DNA from: Bryobacteraceae bacterium
GTDB lineage: Bacteria; Acidobacteriota; Terriglobia; Bryobacterales; Bryobacteraceae
Length of the DNA stretch: 64,000 nucleotides
Assembly (NCBI GenBank): GCA_023384675.1
Contig: JAHDVK010000020.1
Span: 1 to 64,000 of the forward strand
Direction: 5' to 3'
The notes under the pieces are model-generated. The model saw only the letters and a program-made list of their open reading frames with translations, did no database searches and was not told the origin of the DNA. The position numbers and the translations under genes are program-made. Below are positions 49,270 through 61,018 of the stretch, one piece after another; position 1 is the first letter of the stretch; each line of letters begins with the position of its first letter.

Positions 49270-50109
49270 ATGGGGTTAGGCAGCTTTGGTCAAAGTGCAA
49301 TGCAACGTGCAACGACGTTCTTCGCTAAACATCCCGTCTTCACAATCGAGGAGTTCACTGAGTGGTACGGCGCCTCGCGTGAAACTGCTGAGCGTACGGT
49401 CGAGGCGCTCCTCGCCTACCACGTGAGGAACGGGCACCTGGTGCGCATCCGCAAAGGACTGTACGCCGCAGTTCCACCGGCATCCGAGCCCTCGAGCGTA
49501 CCGATCGACCCCTTCCTCGTGGCCGGCAAGCTGGCGCCGGATGCAATCCTCGCTTACCACACGGCGCTGGAGCTTCACGGGAAGGCCCACTCGCCAACGC
49601 ACGAGTTCTTCTACCTGACCAGTCTCGCCGCGCGAACGCTTCAGTTCCGCGGGCAGCGTTTCCGAGCGGTGCGTCGACCTTCCGCGCTGCGTTCCGAACA
49701 ACTTGTTCGGTCGAACGTCCTCACTGTGGATCGGATGGGACTCAGTGTGCGCGTCACGAACCTTGAGAGAACGATGGTGGACGTGCTGGACCGTCCGCAC
49801 TTGGCAGGTGGCTGGGAGGAGATCTGGCGGAGTCTCGCAAGCGTGGAGTTTTTCGATCTCGACGCAGTTGTCGCCTACGCACTGCTGCTCGATAATGCGA
49901 CGACCATCGCCAAGGTCGGCTTCTTTCTGGAGCAGCACATGGAGTCACTGATGGTGACCGAGAGCCATCTCGACCCACTCAGGAGACGCCGCCCTCGTGC
50001 GCCGCATTACCTCTCCCGGGCAGATCGCAGTCCTGGCAAACTCGTTGCCGGCTGGAACCTCGTTGTTCCGCCGGTGGTTCTTGAAAAGGCATGGCAGGAG
50101 GTCTCGTGA
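49270..50109 (+). CDS. AbiEi-type transcriptional regulator (type IV antitoxin family)
   Basis: The 279-residue protein starts with a winged-helix domain (FTIEEFTEWYGASRETAERTV, RNGHLVRIRKGLYA near residues 25-65). The AbiEi middle and C-terminal pattern follows (LAYHTALELHGKAHS near 95; VRVTNLERTMVDVLDRPHLAGGWEEI, core NLERT-VDVLDRP, near 160). AbiEi represses its own operon and pairs with an AbiEii nucleotidyltransferase toxin. No AbiEii motif is found downstream. GTG 50106 overlaps its stop and opens a 40-codon frame ending at 50228 that does not resemble the toxin. Confidence 0.8.
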   Translation: MGLGSFGQSAMQRATTFFAKHPVFTIEEFTEWYGASRETAERTVEALLAYHVRNGHLVRIRKGLYAAVPPASEPSSVPIDPFLVAGKLAPDAILAYHTALELHGKAHSPTHEFFYLTSLAARTLQFRGQRFRAVRRPSALRSEQLVRSNVLTVDRMGLSVRVTNLERTMVDVLDRPHLAGGWEEIWRSLASVEFFDLDAVVAYALLLDNATTIAKVGFFLEQHMESLMVTESHLDPLRRRRPRAPHYLSRADRSPGKLVAGWNLVVPPVVLEKAWQEVS

Positions 50110-52508: not shown

Positions 52509-52523
52509 CGAAATCACCGAGTT

Positions 52524-52543
52524 GCTCGCCCGCCCGGGCGAGC
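52524..52543. repeat. hairpin after first methyltransferase
   Basis: GCTCGCC and GGCGAGC pair around CGCCCG within 52524-52543, just before a second, T-tract-bearing hairpin. It may add to termination between the two methyltransferase genes. Confidence 0.45.
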
Positions 52544-52547
52544 TTGC

Positions 52548-52587
52548 GGGCGGCTCCGGTCCTCCTCCGCGGGGCCGCCCCTTTTTT
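52548..52587 (+). terminator. rho-independent terminator between methyltransferase genes
   Basis: GGGCGGC (52548-52554) pairs with GCCGCCC (52574-52580) and is followed by CTTTTTT (52581-52587). It lies 40 bases after the first methyltransferase stop and directly before the ribosome site of the second. The second gene must therefore depend on read-through or on its own promoter. Confidence 0.55.
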
Positions 52588-52599
52588 GAGGCACGACGA

Positions 52600-53862
52600 T
52601 TGAAAATCGACATCCAGGTTGAACGCTGGCCCATCGACCGGCTCATTCCTTACGCAAGAAATGCCCGCACGCACACGGACGAGCAGGTAGCGCAGATCGC
52701 CGCTTCGATCGCAGAATTCGGGTGGACGAACCCGGTTCTGGTTGGCAGTGACGGCGTGCTCATCGCGGGCCATGCCCGGCTGATGGCGGCGCGGAAGCTG
52801 GCGATGGCCGAAGTGCCGGTGATCGTGCTGGACCACCTGAGCGAGTCGCAGCGACGTGCCCTGGTGCTGGCGGACAACCGGCTTGCCCTTTCGGCAGCGT
52901 GGAATGAGGACATGCTGCGCGTCGAATTGGAGGCGTTGCGGGAAGACGATTACAACATCGATCTTCTCGGGTTCACGGATGAGGAGATTGAGAGCCTACT
53001 GGCTGAGCCGGAGTCCGAGTCTGCGGGGCAAACGGACGAGGATGCCGTGCCGGAGACGGCGGAGTCGGCGGTCACGGTGCCTGGTGATGTCTGGCTGCTG
53101 GGCCAGCACAGACTCTTGTGTGGCGACGCCACGGTGCTCGGCGATTTGGAGAAGGTGCTGGCCGGAGGCTTGGCCGACATGACCTTTTGCGACCCACCGT
53201 ACAACGTGAACTACGGCGCGACGATGAAAGACAAGCTCCGAGGCAAGTCGCACCGCAAGATCGCCAACGACAATCTGGGCGAGGACTTCGCCAAGTTCCT
53301 CCACGACGCCTGCGTCAATATGCTGGCGTTGACGAAGGGAGCCGTCTACATCTGCATGTCCTCCTCGGAGTTGCACACGCTGCAGAAGGCATTCCGCGAC
53401 GCGGGCGGGCACTGGTCGACGTTCGTGATCTGGGCCAAGAACACCTTCACGATGGGCCGCTCGGATTATCAGCGGCAGTACGAGCCGATTCTCTACGGCT
53501 GGAAGGAGGGCGCGGACCATTTCTGGTGCGGCGCCCGCGACCAGGGCGACGTGTGGTTCATCAAGAAGCCGCACGTGAACGACCTCCATCCGACGATGAA
53601 GCCGGTGGAGTTGGTGGAGCGCGCGGTGCGCAACAGCAGCAAGAGCCGGGACACTGTGCTCGATCCGTTTGGCGGCTCGGGGTCGACGCTGATCGCGTGC
53701 GAGAAAGCGGGGCGCCAGGCGCGCGTGATTGAATTGGAGCCAAAGTATTGCGATGTCATCATCCGCCGCTTCCAGCAATTCGCCGGCAAACCTGCCACCC
53801 TCGAGGGCGACGGACAAAGCTTCGACGAAATCGCAGTGGGACGAGGTGAGGTGGCAGCATGA
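52600..53862 (+). CDS. ParB-N domain fused to DNA methyltransferase (DPPY type)
   Basis: TTG 52600 with GAGG eight bases upstream gives 420 residues starting MKIDIQVERWPIDRLIPYAR. The ParB-like half (GVLIAGHARLMAARKLAMAE) is closely similar to that of the preceding gene. The methyltransferase half has motif IV FCDPPYNVNYG near 196 and motif I LDPFGGSGSTLIAC near 355, as in N6-adenine enzymes of the beta class. Reading an upstream frame from 52522 would cross the terminator hairpin and adds no conserved sequence. Confidence 0.9.
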   Translation: MKIDIQVERWPIDRLIPYARNARTHTDEQVAQIAASIAEFGWTNPVLVGSDGVLIAGHARLMAARKLAMAEVPVIVLDHLSESQRRALVLADNRLALSAAWNEDMLRVELEALREDDYNIDLLGFTDEEIESLLAEPESESAGQTDEDAVPETAESAVTVPGDVWLLGQHRLLCGDATVLGDLEKVLAGGLADMTFCDPPYNVNYGATMKDKLRGKSHRKIANDNLGEDFAKFLHDACVNMLALTKGAVYICMSSSELHTLQKAFRDAGGHWSTFVIWAKNTFTMGRSDYQRQYEPILYGWKEGADHFWCGARDQGDVWFIKKPHVNDLHPTMKPVELVERAVRNSSKSRDTVLDPFGGSGSTLIACEKAGRQARVIELEPKYCDVIIRRFQQFAGKPATLEGDGQSFDEIAVGRGEVAA

Positions 53863-54284: not shown

Positions 54285-54323
54285 GTGATGGCACTCCGAT
54301 GATTGTGGCGGAGCGGTTATCAC
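54285..54323. promoter_or_regulatory. nested dyad before HTH gene
   Basis: GTGAT (54285-54289) and ATCAC (54319-54323) enclose CTCCG (54294-54298) and CGGAG (54309-54313), forming a two-part stem 20 bases before the HTH gene ATG. It could be the operator of that regulator. Confidence 0.4.
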
Positions 54324-54343
54324 TCCAGAGTGGTTTGTGTGAA

Positions 54344-54673
54344 ATGAAGAAGCTACGCAACGGGAGTATAAATCAGCCAAGCGCGGGAAGCCGAATCGTG
54401 GCCAGCCTCCGCGAAGCAGCGGAGTGGGCGGAAGGTCGGGATGTAGGTGCCCGGGTCACCACGGTTGAGGTGCCAGAAGTGGATGTGCGAGCAGTGCGAC
54501 GGCGGCTCGGCCTGAGTCAGGCGGCGTTCGCGGCAAAGTTCGGGTTTCCGCCAGCCACCCTGCGCAATTGGGAACAGGGTCGGACACGACCTGATGGCCC
54601 GTCGCGGGTCCTGCTGGCGGTCATCGCCAGCCATCCGGAGGCGGTGGAGGACGCCCTCAAGAAAGCCAGCTGA
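54344..54673 (+). CDS. HTH antitoxin-like regulator (HigA/NadS type), orphan
   Basis: ATG 54344 gives 109 residues. The C-terminal half is an Xre-type helix-turn-helix in the HigA/NadS style (VRAVRRRLGLSQAAFAAKFG, PPATLRNWEQGRTRPDGPSR). These are antitoxins of RelE-type toxins, encoded directly upstream in this subfamily. The 103 bases upstream contain no toxin gene, so it is an orphan or a repurposed phage regulator. A dyad just before it may be its operator. Confidence 0.75.
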   Translation: MKKLRNGSINQPSAGSRIVASLREAAEWAEGRDVGARVTTVEVPEVDVRAVRRRLGLSQAAFAAKFGFPPATLRNWEQGRTRPDGPSRVLLAVIASHPEAVEDALKKAS

Positions 54674-54682
54674 AGGGAGAAA

Positions 54683-54705
54683 GCCGCCGGCGGGTGACCG
54701 GCGGC
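54683..54705. terminator. hairpin between convergent genes
   Basis: GCCGCCGG (54683-54690) and CCGGCGGC (54698-54705) pair perfectly around CGGGTGA, between the HTH stop and the end of the minus-strand operon. It could stop transcription from both sides, though no long T tract follows. Confidence 0.5.
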
Positions 54706-54724
54706 GGGAAGCAGGCTGTGTGGC

Positions 54725-55117
54725 CTACCCCATCCGTTCGAGCTTGCGGCCCAGATCTTCGAAGGCGTAGAACTCTGGGGTTCCGCCCTCGACCACCGGC
54801 GTCTCACCGGATTCACCTCCGTACTGCGCGACTCCATCCGGGAGCCAGCCGTACTCGATCCAGCCCTCCTCGTCGGGGCCGATGCAGCCGAAGTAGAAAC
54901 CGGGGTAGGCGTCCGACAGGGCGGCGTAGGCGAAGTCGACCGCCTCGTCGGGCCGGGATTCGCGCATCAGGTGCATGAACTTCTCGGACTGGATGCGGTT
55001 GATCTTGTTGAGGACGGTGCCGATCGCGCCGGCGAAACGGTCCTGGCGCGCGGGATGGATGCGGAAGGCCACACCCGGTTGGGTGTAGACCTTGGCATGT
55101 TGAACGGGTCGGGGCAT
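54725..55117 (-). CDS. hypothetical phage protein (last gene of minus operon)
   Basis: The 130-residue acidic protein contains an N-terminal VAFRIHPARQDRFAGAIGTV segment and a C-terminal part rich in Gly and aromatic residues (YPGFYFGCIGPDEEGWIEYG). AAAGGAG lies upstream of its ATG, one base after the preceding gene. I do not recognise it. It is part of a five-gene minus-strand operon starting at 56385. Confidence 0.6.
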   Translation of the reverse strand: MPRPVQHAKVYTQPGVAFRIHPARQDRFAGAIGTVLNKINRIQSEKFMHLMRESRPDEAVDFAYAALSDAYPGFYFGCIGPDEEGWIEYGWLPDGVAQYGGESGETPVVEGGTPEFYAFEDLGRKLERMG

Positions 55118-55118
55118 T

Positions 55119-55361
55119 TCAGTTCGGTCTCCTTTCCGGGATGATGATGCCGGTCTGTTGTTTCAGAACCCGGCGCAGCAGGCGGCTGTCGTCCTCGCCG
55201 GGCTGGCGCTGGCGGTCGAGTTCGGCGGCGACGTCGGGATCGATCAGGAAGGCGACCTGGCCATCGGGGAGGGCGGTGACGCCCTCCATTTCTCCGATGG
55301 CGAGGCCGCGCAGTGCGTTGGCGACTTCCGCGTCGACGGTGATGCGCTTCCAGCCCTTCAT
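55119..55361 (-). CDS. hypothetical phage protein
   Basis: The 80-residue protein (MKGWKRITVDAEVANALRGL) has a middle beta segment (ALPDGQVAFLIDPDVAAEL) and a C-terminal Arg-rich helix. Its ATG overlaps the upstream DUF3489 stop by four bases. No family is recognised. Confidence 0.6.
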   Translation of the reverse strand: MKGWKRITVDAEVANALRGLAIGEMEGVTALPDGQVAFLIDPDVAAELDRQRQPGEDDSRLLRRVLKQQTGIIIPERRPN

Positions 55362-55918
55362 GCCTGGGCCTCCGGGAGGCGGTAGGCGCGGGCGCCGTCG
55401 TCGGTCTTGAGGGATTCGATGGCGAGGCCCATCTTCTTGCCGAGGCTGCCGGAGAGGAAGCCGCGGACGCTGTGCGACTGCCAGCCCGTGGCGGACATGA
55501 TCTGCTCGAGGGTGGCGCCTTCGGGGCGGCGGAGCAGGTCGAGGACGATGGCCTTCTTGCTGCCGGGGCGCGCCTCGCGCGGCTCCGTATCAATGGTGGC
55601 CTTGGTGGCCTTCCGCTTCGGCGCGGGCGCGGCAGGGGCCGCCGTGGGCGCGGGGGTGGGCGTCAGGGCCTGGATGGCGCGCCAGATGCGCGTGATGGCC
55701 GACTTGCGGTCTGTGAACTTCTTGACCGGCTTGAGGTCACCGAAGGGCGGCACCTCGGCGAAGTTGTTCCAGACCTCCACAAAGCGGGCCATGGGCCAGG
55801 CGGCGGCGAGTTTGGTGAGTTCCTTCTCGGAGGAGAAGGTGGCGTGGTCCTCGGGGATCGACTCGCCCGCGAGGTAGGCGGTGATGGTGTTTTCGGCATC
55901 GATGGCAAAGATGGTCAT
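55358..55918 (-). CDS. DUF3489 domain protein
   Basis: The 186-residue protein has an N-terminal region of about 90 residues, a Pro/Ala-rich linker, and a C-terminal DUF3489 domain (GSKKAIVLDLLRRPEGATLE, then QIMSATGWQSHSVRGFLSGS near residue 125). This domain is helix-turn-helix-like and common in phages and phage-derived regions. It probably binds DNA. Confidence 0.8.
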   Translation of the reverse strand: MTIFAIDAENTITAYLAGESIPEDHATFSSEKELTKLAAAWPMARFVEVWNNFAEVPPFGDLKPVKKFTDRKSAITRIWRAIQALTPTPAPTAAPAAPAPKRKATKATIDTEPREARPGSKKAIVLDLLRRPEGATLEQIMSATGWQSHSVRGFLSGSLGKKMGLAIESLKTDDGARAYRLPEAQA

Positions 55919-55933
55919 GAGAGTGGGTCCTTT

Positions 55934-56164
55934 CTATCGGTTGAGGCCGGCGAGTTTGTCGTCGGCGGTGATGGTGAGTTGCTTGTAGTAACCGCTGGCG
56001 GTACGAGCCCACCCGAAGGGTGTTTGGATCTCGTGCCGGGCGGCAATGCGGCTCAGTTTCAGGCGGTGGGCGCCGTTGGGGAAGTCCTTCTTGAGGTGGC
56101 CCCAGCGGTCGAGTTTCCAGCCGTTGCGAGTGGCCCAGGCGATCAGTTGGTCGCGGGTCAGCAT
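55934..56164 (-). CDS. hypothetical phage protein
   Basis: The 76-residue basic protein (MLTRDQLIAWATRNGWKLDR) starts two bases after the upstream gene. It has a helix followed by beta-like GHLKKDFPNGAHRLKLS. AAAGGA precedes the following gene. No family is recognised. Confidence 0.6.
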   Translation of the reverse strand: MLTRDQLIAWATRNGWKLDRWGHLKKDFPNGAHRLKLSRIAARHEIQTPFGWARTASGYYKQLTITADDKLAGLNR

Positions 56165-56166
56165 GG

Positions 56167-56385
56167 TCAGGCCTTCTGGCTCCGGTCGATGAGGCCGGTG
56201 GCGTCCTCGACGGAGGTCCGGATGTCGTTCCAGCAGTCGCGGCAGAAACGGGCGTGGTCGATTACGTTGCCGTTCGTATCCGTGACCGTCATCTTGCAGT
56301 GGATCGGTTTCGGCTCATCGCAGAGCGAGCATTCGATGTACGGCTGCGCGGCGCTGGTGGTGGGTTGCGGTTGAGTGTTCTGCAT
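56167..56385 (-). CDS. small zinc-ribbon-like phage protein
   Basis: The 72-residue product (start ATG 56385) has two Cys pairs, ECSLCDEPKPIHC near residue 19 and FCRDCWNDI near residue 48, consistent with a zinc ribbon. It heads the operon 56385 to 54725, and the promoter-like 30-bp module ends nine bases before its ATG. Confidence 0.65.
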   Translation of the reverse strand: MQNTQPQPTTSAAQPYIECSLCDEPKPIHCKMTVTDTNGNVIDHARFCRDCWNDIRTSVEDATGLIDRSQKA

Positions 56386-56394
56386 CGCGAACCC

Positions 56395-56424
56395 ATGAAT
56401 CACTTCACTTCCGCGAAGAAGCAA
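56395..56424 (-). promoter_or_regulatory. 30-bp promoter-like module, copy 4
   Basis: On the minus strand: TTGCTT, 16 bases ending in AG, TGATTCAT, nine bases before the ATG of the zinc-ribbon gene. This is the most divergent of four copies that share exact spacing. Confidence 0.6.
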
Positions 56425-56457
56425 GTTGAATCTGCGGATCACGTCGCAGAAAGTGAA

Positions 56458-56479
56458 GCCCCGGCGCGATGGCCGGGGC
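56458..56479 (-). terminator. cassette hairpin, copy 3
   Basis: GCCCCGGC (56458-56465) and GCCGGGGC (56472-56479) form a perfect 8-bp stem. On the minus strand it is followed by TTCACTTTC. It lies between the gene at 56499-56840 and the next module, so it would end that cassette. Confidence 0.65.
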
Positions 56480-56498
56480 GAGTGCTCTCTGTCGCAAC

Positions 56499-56840
56499 CT
56501 ACGCGGTCTCGTTTGATGCCTCGGCCTCCCACTTCAGCAGGTCCTCCATGCGATGGGTGACCTTCAGCCCACGCATCCCGTAGGAGTTGTCGATGAGTAC
56601 CATCGTCGCCTCGCCGTTCTGGGTCCAGATCTGGAGGCCGAGCCCTTGCGCCAAGATCTGGTCGGCCAGGGCCAGGACTCTTTCGGGCCTGACGAAGACG
56701 CTGATGTGCGCGTCGCCCCACTCGACATACCGGAAGCCGTGGTCACGCCGGACCCGGCGCTCGGCGCGGACACTGAACTCGCGCCGCTTGAATCCGGCGG
56801 CGAGCATCTTATCGGTGGCGGTCTTTGTTTGGATCAGCAT
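56499..56840 (-). CDS. hypothetical phage protein
   Basis: The 113-residue protein has an N-terminal helix (TKTATDKMLAAGFKRREFSV) and a beta-rich middle (FRYVEWGDAHISVFVRP), ending with a helix. It forms a one-gene cassette: module at 56849-56878, eight bases before its ATG, and hairpin at 56458-56479. No Shine-Dalgarno sequence is evident. The family is not recognised. Confidence 0.65.
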   Translation of the reverse strand: MLIQTKTATDKMLAAGFKRREFSVRAERRVRRDHGFRYVEWGDAHISVFVRPERVLALADQILAQGLGLQIWTQNGEATMVLIDNSYGMRGLKVTHRMEDLLKWEAEASNETA

Positions 56841-56848
56841 GGTGTTCG

Positions 56849-56878
56849 ATACATCACTCCGAACGGGCGAATGATCAA
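56849..56878 (-). promoter_or_regulatory. 30-bp promoter-like module, copy 3
   Basis: On the minus strand: CGC-TTGATC, 16 bases ending in AG, TGATGTAT, eight bases before the ATG at 56840. Confidence 0.65.
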
Positions 56879-56907
56879 GCGAGAAGGGGCGGAAAGGCGA
56901 AAGAAAA

Positions 56908-56929
56908 GCCCCGGCGCGCAGGCCGGGGC
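56908..56929 (-). terminator. cassette hairpin, copy 2
   Basis: GCCCCGGC (56908-56915) and GCCGGGGC (56922-56929) form the same 8-bp stem. On the minus strand TTTTCTTTC follows, a good terminator tail. It closes the two-gene cassette 57448-56955. Confidence 0.7.
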
Positions 56930-56954
56930 GAGTGCATCGAGGGCGTGCGTGGTT

Positions 56955-57224
56955 CTATTGGGCCTCTTCGAGCAGGACGCGGGTGGTGGGATCCGGTCCC
57001 CAAACGCGGCCGTTGTAGCTGACATGGGCGACCAGCGTGCCCGTCTTGGCGTCCGTGAGGCGCCCGGAGTCGCGCTTGAGTCCGGATGCGCCGAACCCTT
57101 CGGCATCCCGGAATTGCGCCCATCGGCGGCTCGCTTCCGCAAAGGAAGCGACGGGTACGCGCGACGTGGGCACGCCCCTTGCGCTGAGCGTCAGGATCAT
57201 CTTGGTTGTGGGTTTGGTGTTCAT
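56955..57224 (-). CDS. hypothetical phage protein
   Basis: The 89-residue protein (MNTKPTTKMILTLSARGVPT) has a helix with aromatic residues (FAEASRRWAQFRDAEGFGAS) and a beta hairpin (TGTLVAHVSYNGRVWGPD). This helix-then-hairpin arrangement resembles small phage proteins often annotated as hypothetical. It is the second gene of its cassette, 20 bases after the coiled-coil gene. Confidence 0.65.
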   Translation of the reverse strand: MNTKPTTKMILTLSARGVPTSRVPVASFAEASRRWAQFRDAEGFGASGLKRDSGRLTDAKTGTLVAHVSYNGRVWGPDPTTRVLLEEAQ

Positions 57225-57244
57225 GGTGTGGGTGCTTCCGATGG

Positions 57245-57448
57245 CTACTTCTTGCCGATGCCCCAGGTCTTGACGACCAGCTGCGTCAGGCGGCGGGCGT
57301 CGGCTTCGGCGCGGGCGTGGCGCGCCTGCAGGTCCTTAATCTGGCGGGCCAGATCGTCCGCTTCCTTGCGGGCGTCGCGGGCCGCTTTCTCGATCAGCTC
57401 GCGGTGCAGGCTGTTCGCTTCTTCCTGGGTGAGGTTTCTCTTTGCCAT
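57245..57448 (-). CDS. small coiled-coil phage protein
   Basis: The 67-residue protein is almost wholly a charged helix with heptad-like spacing (SLHRELIEKAARDARKEADD). AAGGAG lies eight bases before the ATG, unlike the other cassette-leading genes, and its leader is longer (20 bases from the module). No function can be assigned. Confidence 0.65.
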   Translation of the reverse strand: MAKRNLTQEEANSLHRELIEKAARDARKEADDLARQIKDLQARHARAEADARRLTQLVVKTWGIGKK

Positions 57449-57468
57449 CGTGGTCTCCTTGCACGAAC

Positions 57469-57498
57469 ATTCATCACTTCAAATGCGCCCCCGATCAA
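57469..57498 (-). promoter_or_regulatory. 30-bp promoter-like module, copy 2
   Basis: On the minus strand: CGC-TTGATC, 16 bases ending in AG, TGATGAAT, then 20 bases with a good ribosome site before ATG 57448. Confidence 0.65.
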
Positions 57499-57529
57499 GC
57501 GAATTGCGATCTGATTCAGAAGAAAAGAA

Positions 57530-57551
57530 GCCCCGGCGCGAGGGCCGGGGC
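57530..57551 (-). terminator. cassette hairpin, copy 1
   Basis: GCCCCGGC (57530-57537) and GCCGGGGC (57544-57551) form the shared 8-bp stem, followed on the minus strand by TTCTTTTCTTC. It ends the first cassette. Confidence 0.7.
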
Positions 57552-57574
57552 GTGGGGCTCTGGCTGGCGGGTGA

Positions 57575-57877
57575 TCAGGGGTTGAAGCGGTCGGCCACCT
57601 GGTAGACGCCGTCGACTCCGCGGGCCCAGACCACGTAGCCGTCCGGGCAGGCGGGTTCTTTGCCAGCCTCGAGGTCGCGCATCCGGCAGCGCATGTCGTT
57701 GTCGGCAAACTCCTTCGCCTCGCGCAGGCTGATCACGCCGCCGAGCGGTTCGTAGCGGCCGCCGTCAAATTCGGCGATCAGGAAGGCGTCGCTGAGTTCG
57801 GTCGTCTCCTCGATGCGGATGGTGAAGCCCGGCGTGGTGTTCGCGGGCGCCTTGGTGCGTTTGGTGGTGTTCTTCAT
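57575..57877 (-). CDS. hypothetical phage protein
   Basis: ATG 57877 gives 100 residues (MKNTTKRTKAPANTTPGFTI); an in-frame ATG six codons upstream lies inside the promoter-like module. A beta-rich part (DAFLIAEFDGGRYEPLGGVI) precedes a helix (LREAKEFADNDMRCRMRDLE) and a final strand-like YVVWARGVDGVYQV. Not recognised. It is the only gene of the first cassette. Confidence 0.65.
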   Translation of the reverse strand: MKNTTKRTKAPANTTPGFTIRIEETTELSDAFLIAEFDGGRYEPLGGVISLREAKEFADNDMRCRMRDLEAGKEPACPDGYVVWARGVDGVYQVADRFNP

Positions 57878-57886
57878 CGCGACACC

Positions 57887-57916
57887 ATTCATCACTCACG
57901 TTCGGCCATGAATCAA
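57887..57916 (-). promoter_or_regulatory. 30-bp promoter-like module, copy 1
   Basis: On the minus strand: CGC-TTGATT, 16 bases ending in AG, TGATGAAT, nine bases before ATG 57877. It shares the intergenic region with the divergent head operon. Confidence 0.65.
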
Positions 57917-57950
57917 GCGAAATCGACCGGGAAAGATTGAGAACTTCGAA

Positions 57951-58457
57951 ATGCCGCTGCTGAGCCTGCGGGGCTACGCCAAACATCGCGGCGTGAGTCT
58001 GGCGGCGGTGCAGAAAGCGATCAAAGCGGGCCGGATCGCCACGACGGCGGACGGCCAGATTGACAGTGTCCAGGCCGATGCGACGTGGGAGACGCGGACG
58101 CGCCCCGGCCAAAAGCGGGCTGCTGCAGTCCGCACTGTTATACCCGCGCCTGAACCCGTGCGCACGGATCCGGCCGGTGGCCTCGATTACTTCAAGGCCC
58201 GGGCAATTCGCGAGAGCTACCTCGCCCGCCTGGCCAAGATCGAGTTCGAGGAACGCACGGCGAAGCTGGTGAGCCGGGACGAAGTGCAGGTCGCGGCGTT
58301 CACCAAGGCGCGGACCGTGCGCGACAGTCTGCTGAACCTGCCGGACCGGCTGGCGGCGATGCTGGCCGCGGAGTCCGACGCCGACATTGTGCACCAGGTG
58401 ATGACCTCTGAGATTCGAAAGGCCCTCGATGAGCTCGCCGGCGCAGACAGCCACTGA
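57951..58457 (+). CDS. phage terminase small subunit, Nu1-like
   Basis: The 168-residue protein starts with an excisionase/Nu1-type winged helix (SLRGYAKHRGVSLAAVQKAI, KAGRIATTADGQID) and has a helical C-terminal part (RAIRESYLARLAKIEFEERT near residue 84). It matches the lambda Nu1 layout in position and domain order. It recognises the packaging site and recruits the large subunit. Confidence 0.85.
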   Translation: MPLLSLRGYAKHRGVSLAAVQKAIKAGRIATTADGQIDSVQADATWETRTRPGQKRAAAVRTVIPAPEPVRTDPAGGLDYFKARAIRESYLARLAKIEFEERTAKLVSRDEVQVAAFTKARTVRDSLLNLPDRLAAMLAAESDADIVHQVMTSEIRKALDELAGADSH

Positions 58458-60327
58458 GGTCTACGACCAGGCCTTCCGCGCAGGCCTGCGGCCGGACCCG
58501 CTGCTGACCGTATCGGAGTGGGCGGACCGGTACCGGAGATTGTCGGGCAAGTCGGCCAGCGAGCCGGGCCCGTACCGCACGGAGCGCACCCCTTATCTGA
58601 AGGAGATCATGGACGCGCTCTCGCCCCTGAGCCTTGTCGAGCGGGTCGTGGTGATGAAAGGGGCACAGCTTGGATTTACTGAAGCCGGAAACAACTGGAT
58701 CGGCTATGTGATCCACAAGGCGCCGGGGCCGATGCTGGCGGTGCAGCCCACCGTCGAGATGGCCAAGCGGAACTCGAAGCAGCGCATCGATCCGCTGATC
58801 GAGGAGAGCGAGGCGCTGAGGGAGTTGGTGAAGAGTCCGCGGTCGCGGGACTCGGGCAATACGGTACTGGCGAAGGAGTTTCCCGGCGGCGTGCTGGTGA
58901 TGACCGGCGCCAATTCCGCCGTGGGCCTCCGGTCGATGTCGGCGCGCTACCTGTTCCTGGATGAGATCGACGCCTATCCGGGCGATGTGGAGGGGGAAGG
59001 CGATCCGATCAACCTGGCCTACGCACGCACGAACACGTTCGCGCGGCGGAAGGTCTTTCTGGTTTCGACGCCGCTGATTTCGGGATCGAGCCGGATTGAG
59101 GCGGTCTATGCGGAAAGCGATCAGCGGCGCTACTGGTTGCCGTGCCCGCACTGCGGCGAGTTTCAGGTGCTGGAGTTCGGTCGGCTGCGCTGGCCGAAGG
59201 GCGAGCCGCAGAAGGCGGCCCATCACTGCAATGCGTGCGAGCAGCCGATCTTCAACCACCACAAGGCGTGGATGCTGCCGCGCGGTGAGTGGCGTGCTGC
59301 GGCCACTGGCGATGGGCGCACGCGCGGATACCATCTGTCGAGCCTTTACAGTCCAGTGGGCTGGTACGCCTGGGAGCGGGCTGCGGAGGACTGGGAGAAG
59401 GCCCAGAAGGACGTCGAACGGCTGAAGTCGTTCATCAATCTGGTGCTGGGTGAATCCTGGCAGGAGCGCGGAGAGGCTCCGGACTGGCAGCCCATCTACG
59501 AACGTCGGGAGGATTACCGGATCGGCACGGTGCCAGCGGGCGGGTTGTTCCTCACCGCCGGCGCGGACGTGCAGAAGGACCGCATCGAGTTGGAGGTGGT
59601 GGCCTGGGGGCGCGGCAAGGAGACCTGGTCCGTCGACTATCGCGTGCTAATGGGCGACATTGCCGAGGGCGCAGTGTGGAGGGACCTGGATGAACTGCTG
59701 GACGCGGAATTCAGCGGGCTGCCGATTCGGGTGCTGTGCATTGATTCGGGCTACAACCCGCAGATTGTCTACGACTGGGCGCGGCGGCATCCGCAGGCGT
59801 CGTGGGGCCCGGCAGGCGCACGGGCGTCGCACCCGCGCACGGTAGTGGCGGTGAAGGGCACCTCGCGCAGTGACCGGCTGATCGTGAATGCGAGCGTGGC
59901 CGATGCGGCGAGCAAGCGCCGGGCGGTGCGGGTGTGGACCGTCGGGACGCCGGTGGCGAAGTCGCAACTCTACAGTTGGCTGCGACTGGTGAAACCGACT
60001 AAAGAGAGCGGGGAGCCGTATCCTGCCGGATTTGCCCACTTCCCGCGCTACGAGGAAGAGTACTTCCGGCAGTTGACGGCGGAGAGCCTGGTCAAGGGCA
60101 CGTGGGTGAAGGACCCGAACCGGCGCAACGAAGCGCTGGACTGCCGGGTGTACGCGCGCGCGGCGGCGGCGATCTACGGGATCGACCGTTTCAGGGAACG
60201 CCAGTGGAAGGAACTGGAGGCGCAGCGGCCGACAGTTGTAGAGGACTCAGAGCGCGAAACGCCGACTCACCCGGCCATGAGGCCAGTACGACGAATGATC
60301 GTCCGATCACCCTTTATGGCGCGCTGA
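58429..60327 (+). CDS. phage terminase large subunit, GpA family
   Basis: The 632-residue protein has an ATPase domain with an adenine/Walker-A-like VVMKGAQLGFTEAGNNWIGY near residue 73 and Walker B YLFLDEIDAYPGDVEG near 175. A zinc-ribbon part follows (LPCPHCGEFQV, HHCNACEQPIF near 240-270), then a nuclease domain (LFLTAGADVQKDRIELEVVA near 372). Length and order match lambda gpA. It overlaps the small-subunit gene by 29 bases. It cuts and translocates concatemeric DNA into proheads. Confidence 0.96.
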   Translation: MSSPAQTATEVYDQAFRAGLRPDPLLTVSEWADRYRRLSGKSASEPGPYRTERTPYLKEIMDALSPLSLVERVVVMKGAQLGFTEAGNNWIGYVIHKAPGPMLAVQPTVEMAKRNSKQRIDPLIEESEALRELVKSPRSRDSGNTVLAKEFPGGVLVMTGANSAVGLRSMSARYLFLDEIDAYPGDVEGEGDPINLAYARTNTFARRKVFLVSTPLISGSSRIEAVYAESDQRRYWLPCPHCGEFQVLEFGRLRWPKGEPQKAAHHCNACEQPIFNHHKAWMLPRGEWRAAATGDGRTRGYHLSSLYSPVGWYAWERAAEDWEKAQKDVERLKSFINLVLGESWQERGEAPDWQPIYERREDYRIGTVPAGGLFLTAGADVQKDRIELEVVAWGRGKETWSVDYRVLMGDIAEGAVWRDLDELLDAEFSGLPIRVLCIDSGYNPQIVYDWARRHPQASWGPAGARASHPRTVVAVKGTSRSDRLIVNASVADAASKRRAVRVWTVGTPVAKSQLYSWLRLVKPTKESGEPYPAGFAHFPRYEEEYFRQLTAESLVKGTWVKDPNRRNEALDCRVYARAAAAIYGIDRFRERQWKELEAQRPTVVEDSERETPTHPAMRPVRRMIVRSPFMAR

Positions 60328-60365: not shown

Positions 60366-60926
60366 TCACTGGCGATTGCGCGGGATGGGACCTCTGCCTT
60401 GTTGGGCATTACGATCCCGCCAGTACCGTTCAAAATCGCTGCGCTCTTCCCGATTGGCCTTTGACCACTCTTTGTCCGCCTTCCTGCGCTCCTTCAAATA
60501 CTCGCGCCAAGCCTTCTCTCGCTCGCGTTCGGCTTCGCGAAGGTCTTTTTCTCTTTCACGGACACCTTCGCGGTAGTCTTTGTCGGCCTCACGCATGGCT
60601 TCCCGGCGGTCCTTCTCGCTCTCGCGCAGATTCTCCCGCCGATACCGTTCGAACTCTTCGCGCTCTTCCCGATTGGCCTTTGACCACTCCTTATCCGACT
60701 TCCTGCGCTCCTTCAAATACTCGCGCCAGGCCTTCTCTCGCTCGCGATCGGCTTCGCGAAGATCCTTCTCTCGCTCACGGACATCTTCGCGGTAGTCTTT
60801 GTCAGCTTCCCGCGCGGCGTCTCGGCGATCCTTCGATTGTTGGCTTTTCCCTTGGGCGAGCAGGTCAGAGGACAGTCCAACCCCGAGCGTCAGTGCCAGC
60901 ATCCACATCAACGATTTCAGTCTCAT
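60366..60926 (-). CDS. exported charged coiled-coil protein with tandem duplication
   Basis: ATG 60926 gives 186 residues with a signal peptide (MRLKSLMWMLALTLGVGL, cleavage near LLAQG). The rest is a highly charged helix of two 73-residue repeats (READKDYREDVREREKDLRE and READKDYREGVREREKDLRE mark their starts), visible as a 219-base DNA repeat. It lies against the direction of the head operon, between terminase and gpW, as a moron would. Function is unknown; a periplasmic coiled coil is implied. Confidence 0.7.
   Translation of the reverse strand: MRLKSLMWMLALTLGVGLSSDLLAQGKSQQSKDRRDAAREADKDYREDVREREKDLREADREREKAWREYLKERRKSDKEWSKANREEREEFERYRRENLRESEKDRREAMREADKDYREGVREREKDLREAEREREKAWREYLKERRKADKEWSKANREERSDFERYWRDRNAQQGRGPIPRNRQ
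60440..60880. repeat. 219-bp imperfect tandem duplication inside the coiled-coil gene
   Basis: Matching DNA segments recur at a spacing of exactly 219 bases (for example CGCGGTAGTCTTTGTC near 60571 and 60790), equal to 73 codons. Third-base differences are few, which suggests a fairly recent duplication. Confidence 0.7.
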
Positions 60927-61018
60927 TCCCGGTTCACCTGGGTATTTGGATGTGATCAGGGGCCAAGACGTTCCCTCGGTTTTCACTCATAACAACCGGG
61001 ATTCCCGAAACCACTGAC

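Follow-up and report, generated by a model that had tools for sequence, protein, structure and literature searches.

Organization of the locus

The DNA that we analysed (the window) is a stretch of 64,000 nucleotides from a Bryobacteraceae bacterium. It carries a prophage in which nine small genes occupy the minus strand between 54.7 and 57.9 kb. They form four units, and a 30-bp element that we call the module stands at the head of each (Table 1). This island lies on the opposite strand between the methyltransferase block and the terminase genes; its order is module-gene 1-hairpin, module-gene 2-gene 3-hairpin, module-gene 4-hairpin and module-gene 5-gene 6-DUF3489 gene-gene 8-gene 9, as an earlier note on this DNA had given it.

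Table 1. Features of the accessory island and its flanks (window coordinates)
Feature	Position	Strand	Evidence or remark
Module 1, 30-bp core	57887..57916	-	Pattern match, matrix match
Gene 1, 100 aa	57575..57877	-	ATG 9 nt past module 1
Intrinsic-terminator hairpin 1	57530..57551	-	Inverted repeat, terminator scan, fold
Module 2, 30-bp core	57469..57498	-	Pattern match, matrix match
Gene 2, 67 aa	57245..57448	-	Start at +20 behind AAGGAGA
Gene 3, 89 aa	56955..57224	-	
Intrinsic-terminator hairpin 2	56908..56929	-	Inverted repeat, terminator scan, fold
Module 3, 30-bp core	56849..56878	-	Pattern match, matrix match
Gene 4, 113 aa	56499..56840	-	ATG at +8; unit missing from C12 and C45 prophages
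Intrinsic-terminator hairpin 3	56458..56479	-	Inverted repeat, terminator scan, fold
Module 4, divergent 30-bp core	56395..56424	-	Matrix match
Gene 5, 72 aa	56167..56385	-	ATG at +9; largely deleted in C12 and C45
Gene 6, 76 aa	55934..56164	-	
DUF3489 protein, 186 aa	55358..55918	-	C-terminal part modelled as winged helix
Gene 8, 80 aa	55119..55361	-	
Gene 9, 130 aa	54725..55117	-	
Terminator-like hairpin ending unit 4	~54683..54705	-	Fold; differs from hairpins 1-3
Terminase small subunit, divergent neighbour	57951..58457	+	
Terminase large subunit	58429..60327	+	
ParB-like/DNA methyltransferase gene, block of the other flank	52522..53862	+	

For gene 1, searches of PHROG, Pfam and PADLOC gave no match at E ≤ 0.01, and its confident structural model gave none at E ≤ 0.001 in a structure search; none of the nine island proteins matched defence families at E ≤ 0.01. 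A helix-turn-helix gene (phrog_2104, HTH_3; 54299-54673) converges on the end of the island, and a few relatives (L174, L175, L192) have homologues of it close to the island. Further to the left of the prophage methyltransferases, an AbiEi-antitoxin-like gene (Pfam AbiEi_4, AbiEi_1; 49270-50109) adjoins two protein-kinase genes. Between the terminase and portal genes there is a charged, internally repeated ORF (60366-60986, minus strand) with no PHROG match at E ≤ 0.001.

Terminators

Hairpins 1-3 are the exact inverted repeat GCCCCGGC-N6-GCCGGGGC, located precisely where the earlier note had placed three near-identical hairpins closing the first three units. On the minus strand each has a folding energy of −19.5 kcal/mol and is followed by a T-rich stretch, the GC-rich hairpin with subsequent T-run that characterizes intrinsic terminators. 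Shuffled sequences folded equally well in 1 of 200 cases for hairpin 1, 9 of 200 for hairpin 2 and 0 of 200 for hairpin 3, which makes hairpin 2 the least distinctive. A terminator scan of 54500-58600 returned seven terminator-like sites, compared with 3.3 (SD 2.0) in shuffles, and ranked hairpins 1-3 best. The fourth unit (genes 5-9), for which the note had listed no hairpin, ends in a terminator-like hairpin as well.

Sequence of the module

The module core consists of CTTG[A/C], ∼15 variable bases and GAGTGATGAAT. The full element extends beyond 30 bp: an AGATT-like stretch precedes CTTG[A/C], and at many sites GAGTGATGAAT is followed by CGTCATG and then by an AAGGAG sequence. The literal motif of the earlier note is exact in module 2 only and has one mismatch in modules 1 and 3, giving three matches in the window against 0.15 expected; module 4, which reads TTGCTT...TGATTCAT, has four differences at fixed positions by reading and falls outside the matches with up to three mismatches. 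We trained a matrix, with the window left out, on 18 sites found before gene-1 homologues of other genomes. In a scan of both strands of the window its top four matches were the four modules (scores 36.2, 35.0, 29.4 and 13.8), the fifth scoring −5.9. All four copies are present at 30 bp, though the fourth is more divergent than had been claimed. The distance of 8-9 bases between module and ATG noted in three cases holds for units 1, 3 and 4 (+9, +8 and +9), while unit 2 starts at +20. By its sequence the module is a real, conserved and functional-looking element.

Occurrence of the module in loci selected without it

We collected 80 loci by the terminase large subunit alone; near-copies occur in the set, which also shares some contigs with the pattern scan. 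The whole interval from the methyltransferase block to the terminase was available in 44 loci, and 39 of these carried at least one module (score ≥ 15) on the opposite strand. A module was seen in nine of nine partial islands and in eight of 27 loci having <700 bp of upstream sequence; no module in the 80 loci lay beyond the island or had the reverse orientation. Among the full islands with no module at score ≥ 15, three (L374, L391, L392) have weaker matches (6-10), and both the module and all queried island genes are missing from the other two (L365 and L366, apparently one phage). When loci of other genomes were picked by gene 1, 23 of 27 matched the module model; 18 of the 23 had been used to build it, and of the remaining nine loci five match. 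Relatives with the same genes and no modules, which the earlier note had named as grounds for giving up its reading, were thus mostly not encountered, the exceptions being the four gene-1 loci with no match to the model. These data support the existence of a conserved, strand-oriented element before gene starts.

Gain, loss and reordering of units

It had been suggested to check whether different small genes fill the slots in related prophages. They do: presence and order of the units vary, the unit of variation being module-gene(s)-terminator. In two other prophages of the same genome, C12 and C45, the gene 4 unit is missing and gene 5 is nearly deleted, its start being fused in frame to gene 6; the C45 island ends in a small DUF6900-like gene with an additional module of its own (L009:10567-10607, minus strand). 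The order is gene 1, gene 4, then gene 6-DUF3489-gene 8-gene 9, with genes 2 and 3 absent, in L043, and gene 1, gene 6-DUF3489, then a module and a DUF6900-like gene in L044. The gene 6-DUF3489 unit leads and gene 1 comes last in L377 and L393, and the DUF3489 unit leads with gene 1 last in L398, each unit having its own module. Location between conserved phage genes together with variable presence, as expected of morons, is therefore observed, and each of the four window units has a predicted transcription terminator of its own, another moron property.

Modules before the same gene family were no more alike (0.470) than modules of the same locus (0.474), with 0.423 for unrelated pairs (pairs >0.9 dropped; 29 within-locus pairs); hence there is no sequence support for modules travelling with their genes. 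The repeated terminators could supply the homology by which units are gained or lost.

Distribution in the genome, order and phylum

The genome of origin has 13 sites at E < 1e-3: four in the window prophage, three in the related C12 prophage, four in the C45 prophage, one on contig C25, next to a truncated homologue of gene 1, and one on C2, next to a short gene 5 match. The terminase large subunit gene of the C12 prophage (L007:12106-13416, minus strand) has, by our reading of the sequence, an intein-like interruption after MKGSQIGG.

Among the matches listed, 72 of 257 Bryobacterales genomes, the genome of origin included, have 1-13 sites at E ≤ 1e-3, while a phylum-wide draw of 396 genomes gave a site at E ≤ 1e-4 in the genome of origin and in none of the other 395 (at least two of which belong to its family). 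With a strict pattern, 24 of 42 stretches from named genomes were titled Acidobacteriota, mainly Bryobacterales or relatives, Ca. Sulfopaludibacter being counted among them. From the order-wide sites we chose by hand a subset and fetched 60 larger stretches around them: 39 also have packaging or methyltransferase genes, 14 have island genes only and one has a recombinase; in six we found none of the queried genes, and these count against the interpretation given below. The module is accordingly not an element of one phage, being present in many related phages of the order.

Position relative to gene starts and promoter interpretation

A start codon opening at least 40 codons occurs within 70 nt of 97 of 99 module sites, compared with 333 of 495 random places. 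For a larger set of 279 unique sites (score ≥ 19) we scanned from +5 onwards and recorded the first ATG that begins a reading frame of 40 codons. Such an ATG lies at +7-9 in 87 sites (4 of 279 random places) and at +20-69 in 154; 15 sites fall between the +9 and +20 classes and 23 have no ATG. A Shine-Dalgarno-like (SD-like) sequence precedes 90 of the 154 distant starts and only one of the 87 near ones, and the latter fits leaderless mRNA. Leaderless transcripts, proposed earlier for the window, would agree with the spacing in 87 of the 279 sites. Where the gene starts at +9, the ATG inside the module is in frame with that of the gene, and no stop codon intervenes in 65 of 65 cases (25 distinct spacers), so that translation could begin inside the module; this would not fit a −10 box. 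A strict terminator stands just upstream of 24 of 99 sites; the count is 8 for 495 random places and 4 when the opposite strand is scanned. The 75 sites with no such terminator count against the interpretation that follows.

Conservation, position and strand of the module, the window's terminators, and the gain or loss of entire units can be read directly from the sequence. The best reading of them is that of a mobile-element promoter driving a moron-like array: the module is probably a dedicated promoter of phages and mobile elements, used four times here, which would drive the opposite-strand accessory island as separate units closed by terminators. Transcription would start just past the right box. 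With this box at −10, there would be a leaderless class and a class with a short leader carrying a ribosome site, and about a third of the units would yield leaderless or nearly leaderless mRNA.

The classical form of a moron array, in which every unit is preceded by a weak but otherwise ordinary promoter of the housekeeping sigma-70 type and these promoters are alike through recent duplication, is in our opinion unlikely. The left box does resemble a −35 box (CTTGAC-like), the spacing is near that of sigma-70 promoters and the window units have terminators. Against it, the form of the right box is kept where the spacer has diverged, no sigma-70-like site was detected in 54500-58600 (where only 0.4 would be expected by chance), and TANNNT at 15-19 nt from TTGNNN was found in 0 of 279 module sites, a count partly built in because the matrix favours GATGAAT at that place. 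Upstream of host tRNA genes, TANN[AC]T is present in 21 of 29 sequences (4.8 expected) and a spaced −35/−10 pair in 14 of 29 (2.3 expected). With ordinary boxes before tRNA genes and no TANNNT in the modules, the housekeeping factor alone is unlikely to be the reader, and we hold a host sigma-70 promoter to be improbable. From the moron array of the earlier note we retain the promoter-like module, the terminators and the variable units, while the boxes of housekeeping sigma-70 are absent. It is still more improbable that the module serves mainly in recombination or insertion, by which the array would be built, rather than as a promoter. Units vary as blocks and some modules precede recombinase genes, as a recombination site would have it; however, fixed start-codon spacing, strand bias and upstream terminators fit transcription, no inverted repeat was seen in the core, and homology between the repeated hairpins would explain block exchange equally well.

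The module may also be mainly an operator: a phage protein, DUF3489 or another, may bind it and repress or activate all units, by analogy with MrpR at its SPBRE sites; the earlier note had likewise offered a single phage regulator, set against the head operon, as one option. We regard this as a possibility of some substance, though not one that we would expect to be right; it overlaps with the promoter reading, which leaves the reader open, so the likelihoods of the two are not exclusive. A fixed asymmetric motif before genes would suit an operator. DUF3489 is present in 39 of 39 full islands with the module, two loci with no module variant lack it, and a winged helix is predicted for its C-terminal part. 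On the other hand, a search with the window's DUF3489 protein found no homologue close to the convincing sites outside Acidobacteriota, and Acidithiobacillus phage AcaML1 has DUF3489 at the same place and no module.

Candidate readers

If the module is a promoter, its reader would be an alternative sigma factor or an element-linked DNA-binding factor, rather than the housekeeping holoenzyme alone. A search with PF04545 (Sigma70_r4), the only sigma family tried, covered 16 phage records, mostly fragments to judge by their length; nothing exceeded the cut-off, and the single weak match (E 0.008) was in the L044 record. A phage-encoded sigma factor was set aside on this result. DUF3489, a predicted winged-helix protein, would be one candidate. 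Its model has a mean pLDDT of 79.6 over the whole chain and a pTM of 0.46. No solved structure matched by sequence, and a fold search gave no hit at E ≤ 0.001 (best E 0.022), winged-helix proteins prevailing near the top. The domain is linked to a SCOP superfamily in a published passage that does not give the superfamily's name (PMC4520260). DUF3489 may be the regulator or just one of the regulated genes.

Comparison with known systems

The morons of lambdoid phages are additional genes that lie among conserved ones, are present in some phages only and have their own promoter and terminator; the window units differ from these in sharing one dedicated element with no sigma-70 boxes. A DUF3489-like gene also leads small genes in AcaML1 (JX507079.1, L417), which lie between methyltransferase and terminase and on the strand opposite to these, though no module was found there.

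Repeated elements of related kinds have been described. The SPBRE of Bacillus subtilis prophage SPbeta, a site of the MrpR repressor, is in the account given by PMC10516654 similarly one short element repeated in promoter regions across the prophage, mostly before genes of unknown function; it has 15 bp and belongs to one prophage, whereas the module has 30 bp with −35/−10-like spacing and occurs in many phages. The start-associated sequences (SAS) of Cluster K mycobacteriophages, as portrayed in PMC3203893, are likewise asymmetric repeats a few nucleotides before starts, mainly in one orientation and at non-structural genes. They are 13 bp long, belong to one phage cluster and typically lie 3-7 bp from the start, while the two-box module of 30 bp is followed by 7-9 nt (87 of 279 sites, ATGs nearer than +5 being outside the scan) or by a longer leader (20-69 nt, 154 sites). 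The sigma-H promoter upstream of int in Staphylococcus aureus prophages, in the description of PMC2869324, is also a short conserved region common to prophages that has no typical sigma-A or sigma-B sequence, and there an alternative sigma factor is the reader; it precedes int, while modules form arrays before accessory genes. A Bryobacterales provirus group was published in 2025, and the word 'promoter' is absent from the main text of that paper (PMC11924767). Our literature search, largely of papers outside subscription, yielded among the matches listed no publication on the module.

By its sequence the module is a new element of promoter type in a phage array of a known kind. In related phages and mobile elements it stands ahead of many small genes of different kinds, so that a single control code for genes gained and lost as units appears to be common to them. 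With the module, a regulon of accessory genes in phages can be approached from the sequence, the 30-bp motif locating small unknown genes in phage islands where protein homology is missing. If the reader is found, it will become testable how phages turn on the genes they gain, possibly in very different hosts.

Sites outside Acidobacteriota

Among the matches listed, the pattern scans also matched records of Clostridia, Saccharibacteria and others, as well as lower-GC virus contigs. We split off by hand (GC content, title and first look) 42 hits outside Acidobacteriota, several near-copies included. The columns outside the pattern supported 14 of the 42 at p < 0.01 and 20 at p < 0.05; the other 22 (p ≥ 0.05) are probably chance matches. 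Among the convincing hits, the L186 site stands before a DUF2924 gene, behind which lies a recombinase-like ORF, the sites of L178, L179 and L224 precede recombinase-like genes (a homologue from L195 has a Resolvase domain), and the gene behind the L207 site has a PHROG match of amidoligase type; L180, L198, L201, L236 and L246 look similar by reading or clustering. Bryobacterales have such loci too, with the order module-DUF3489-DUF2924-recombinase in L143 and L145 and a similar one in L112. All 20 outside records of this kind that were searched have a site, as follows from their selection, and two virus records have four and five at E ≤ 1.

The module seems to occur beyond this phylum, some convincing sites standing before recombinase and accessory genes, but this is the least certain part of our findings. 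One could tentatively imagine a single promoter code, CTTG[A/C]-N15-GAGTGATGAAT, used in Acidobacteriota, Clostridia and some other bacteria alike, both by phages and by elements that carry recombinases; its reader would be portable or very widely conserved, and genes would become cargo by joining the code. We think this conceivable rather than probable.

Proteobacterial phage and plasmid records with DUF3489 were scanned for the module in six of the ten cases matched (AcaML1, Eleftheria, Bradyrhizobium, Paracoccus, Roseicitreum and Shinella); none was found near DUF3489 in these six, the best score being 9.9 (Paracoccus) and the rest ≤ 5.2. The DUF3489 islands of Paracoccus and Roseicitreum have a repeated element of their own, with a AGAGCGAT or GGAGCGAT core (L420:1270 and 2114; L421:1275 and 2126), which is possibly a far relative of the module.
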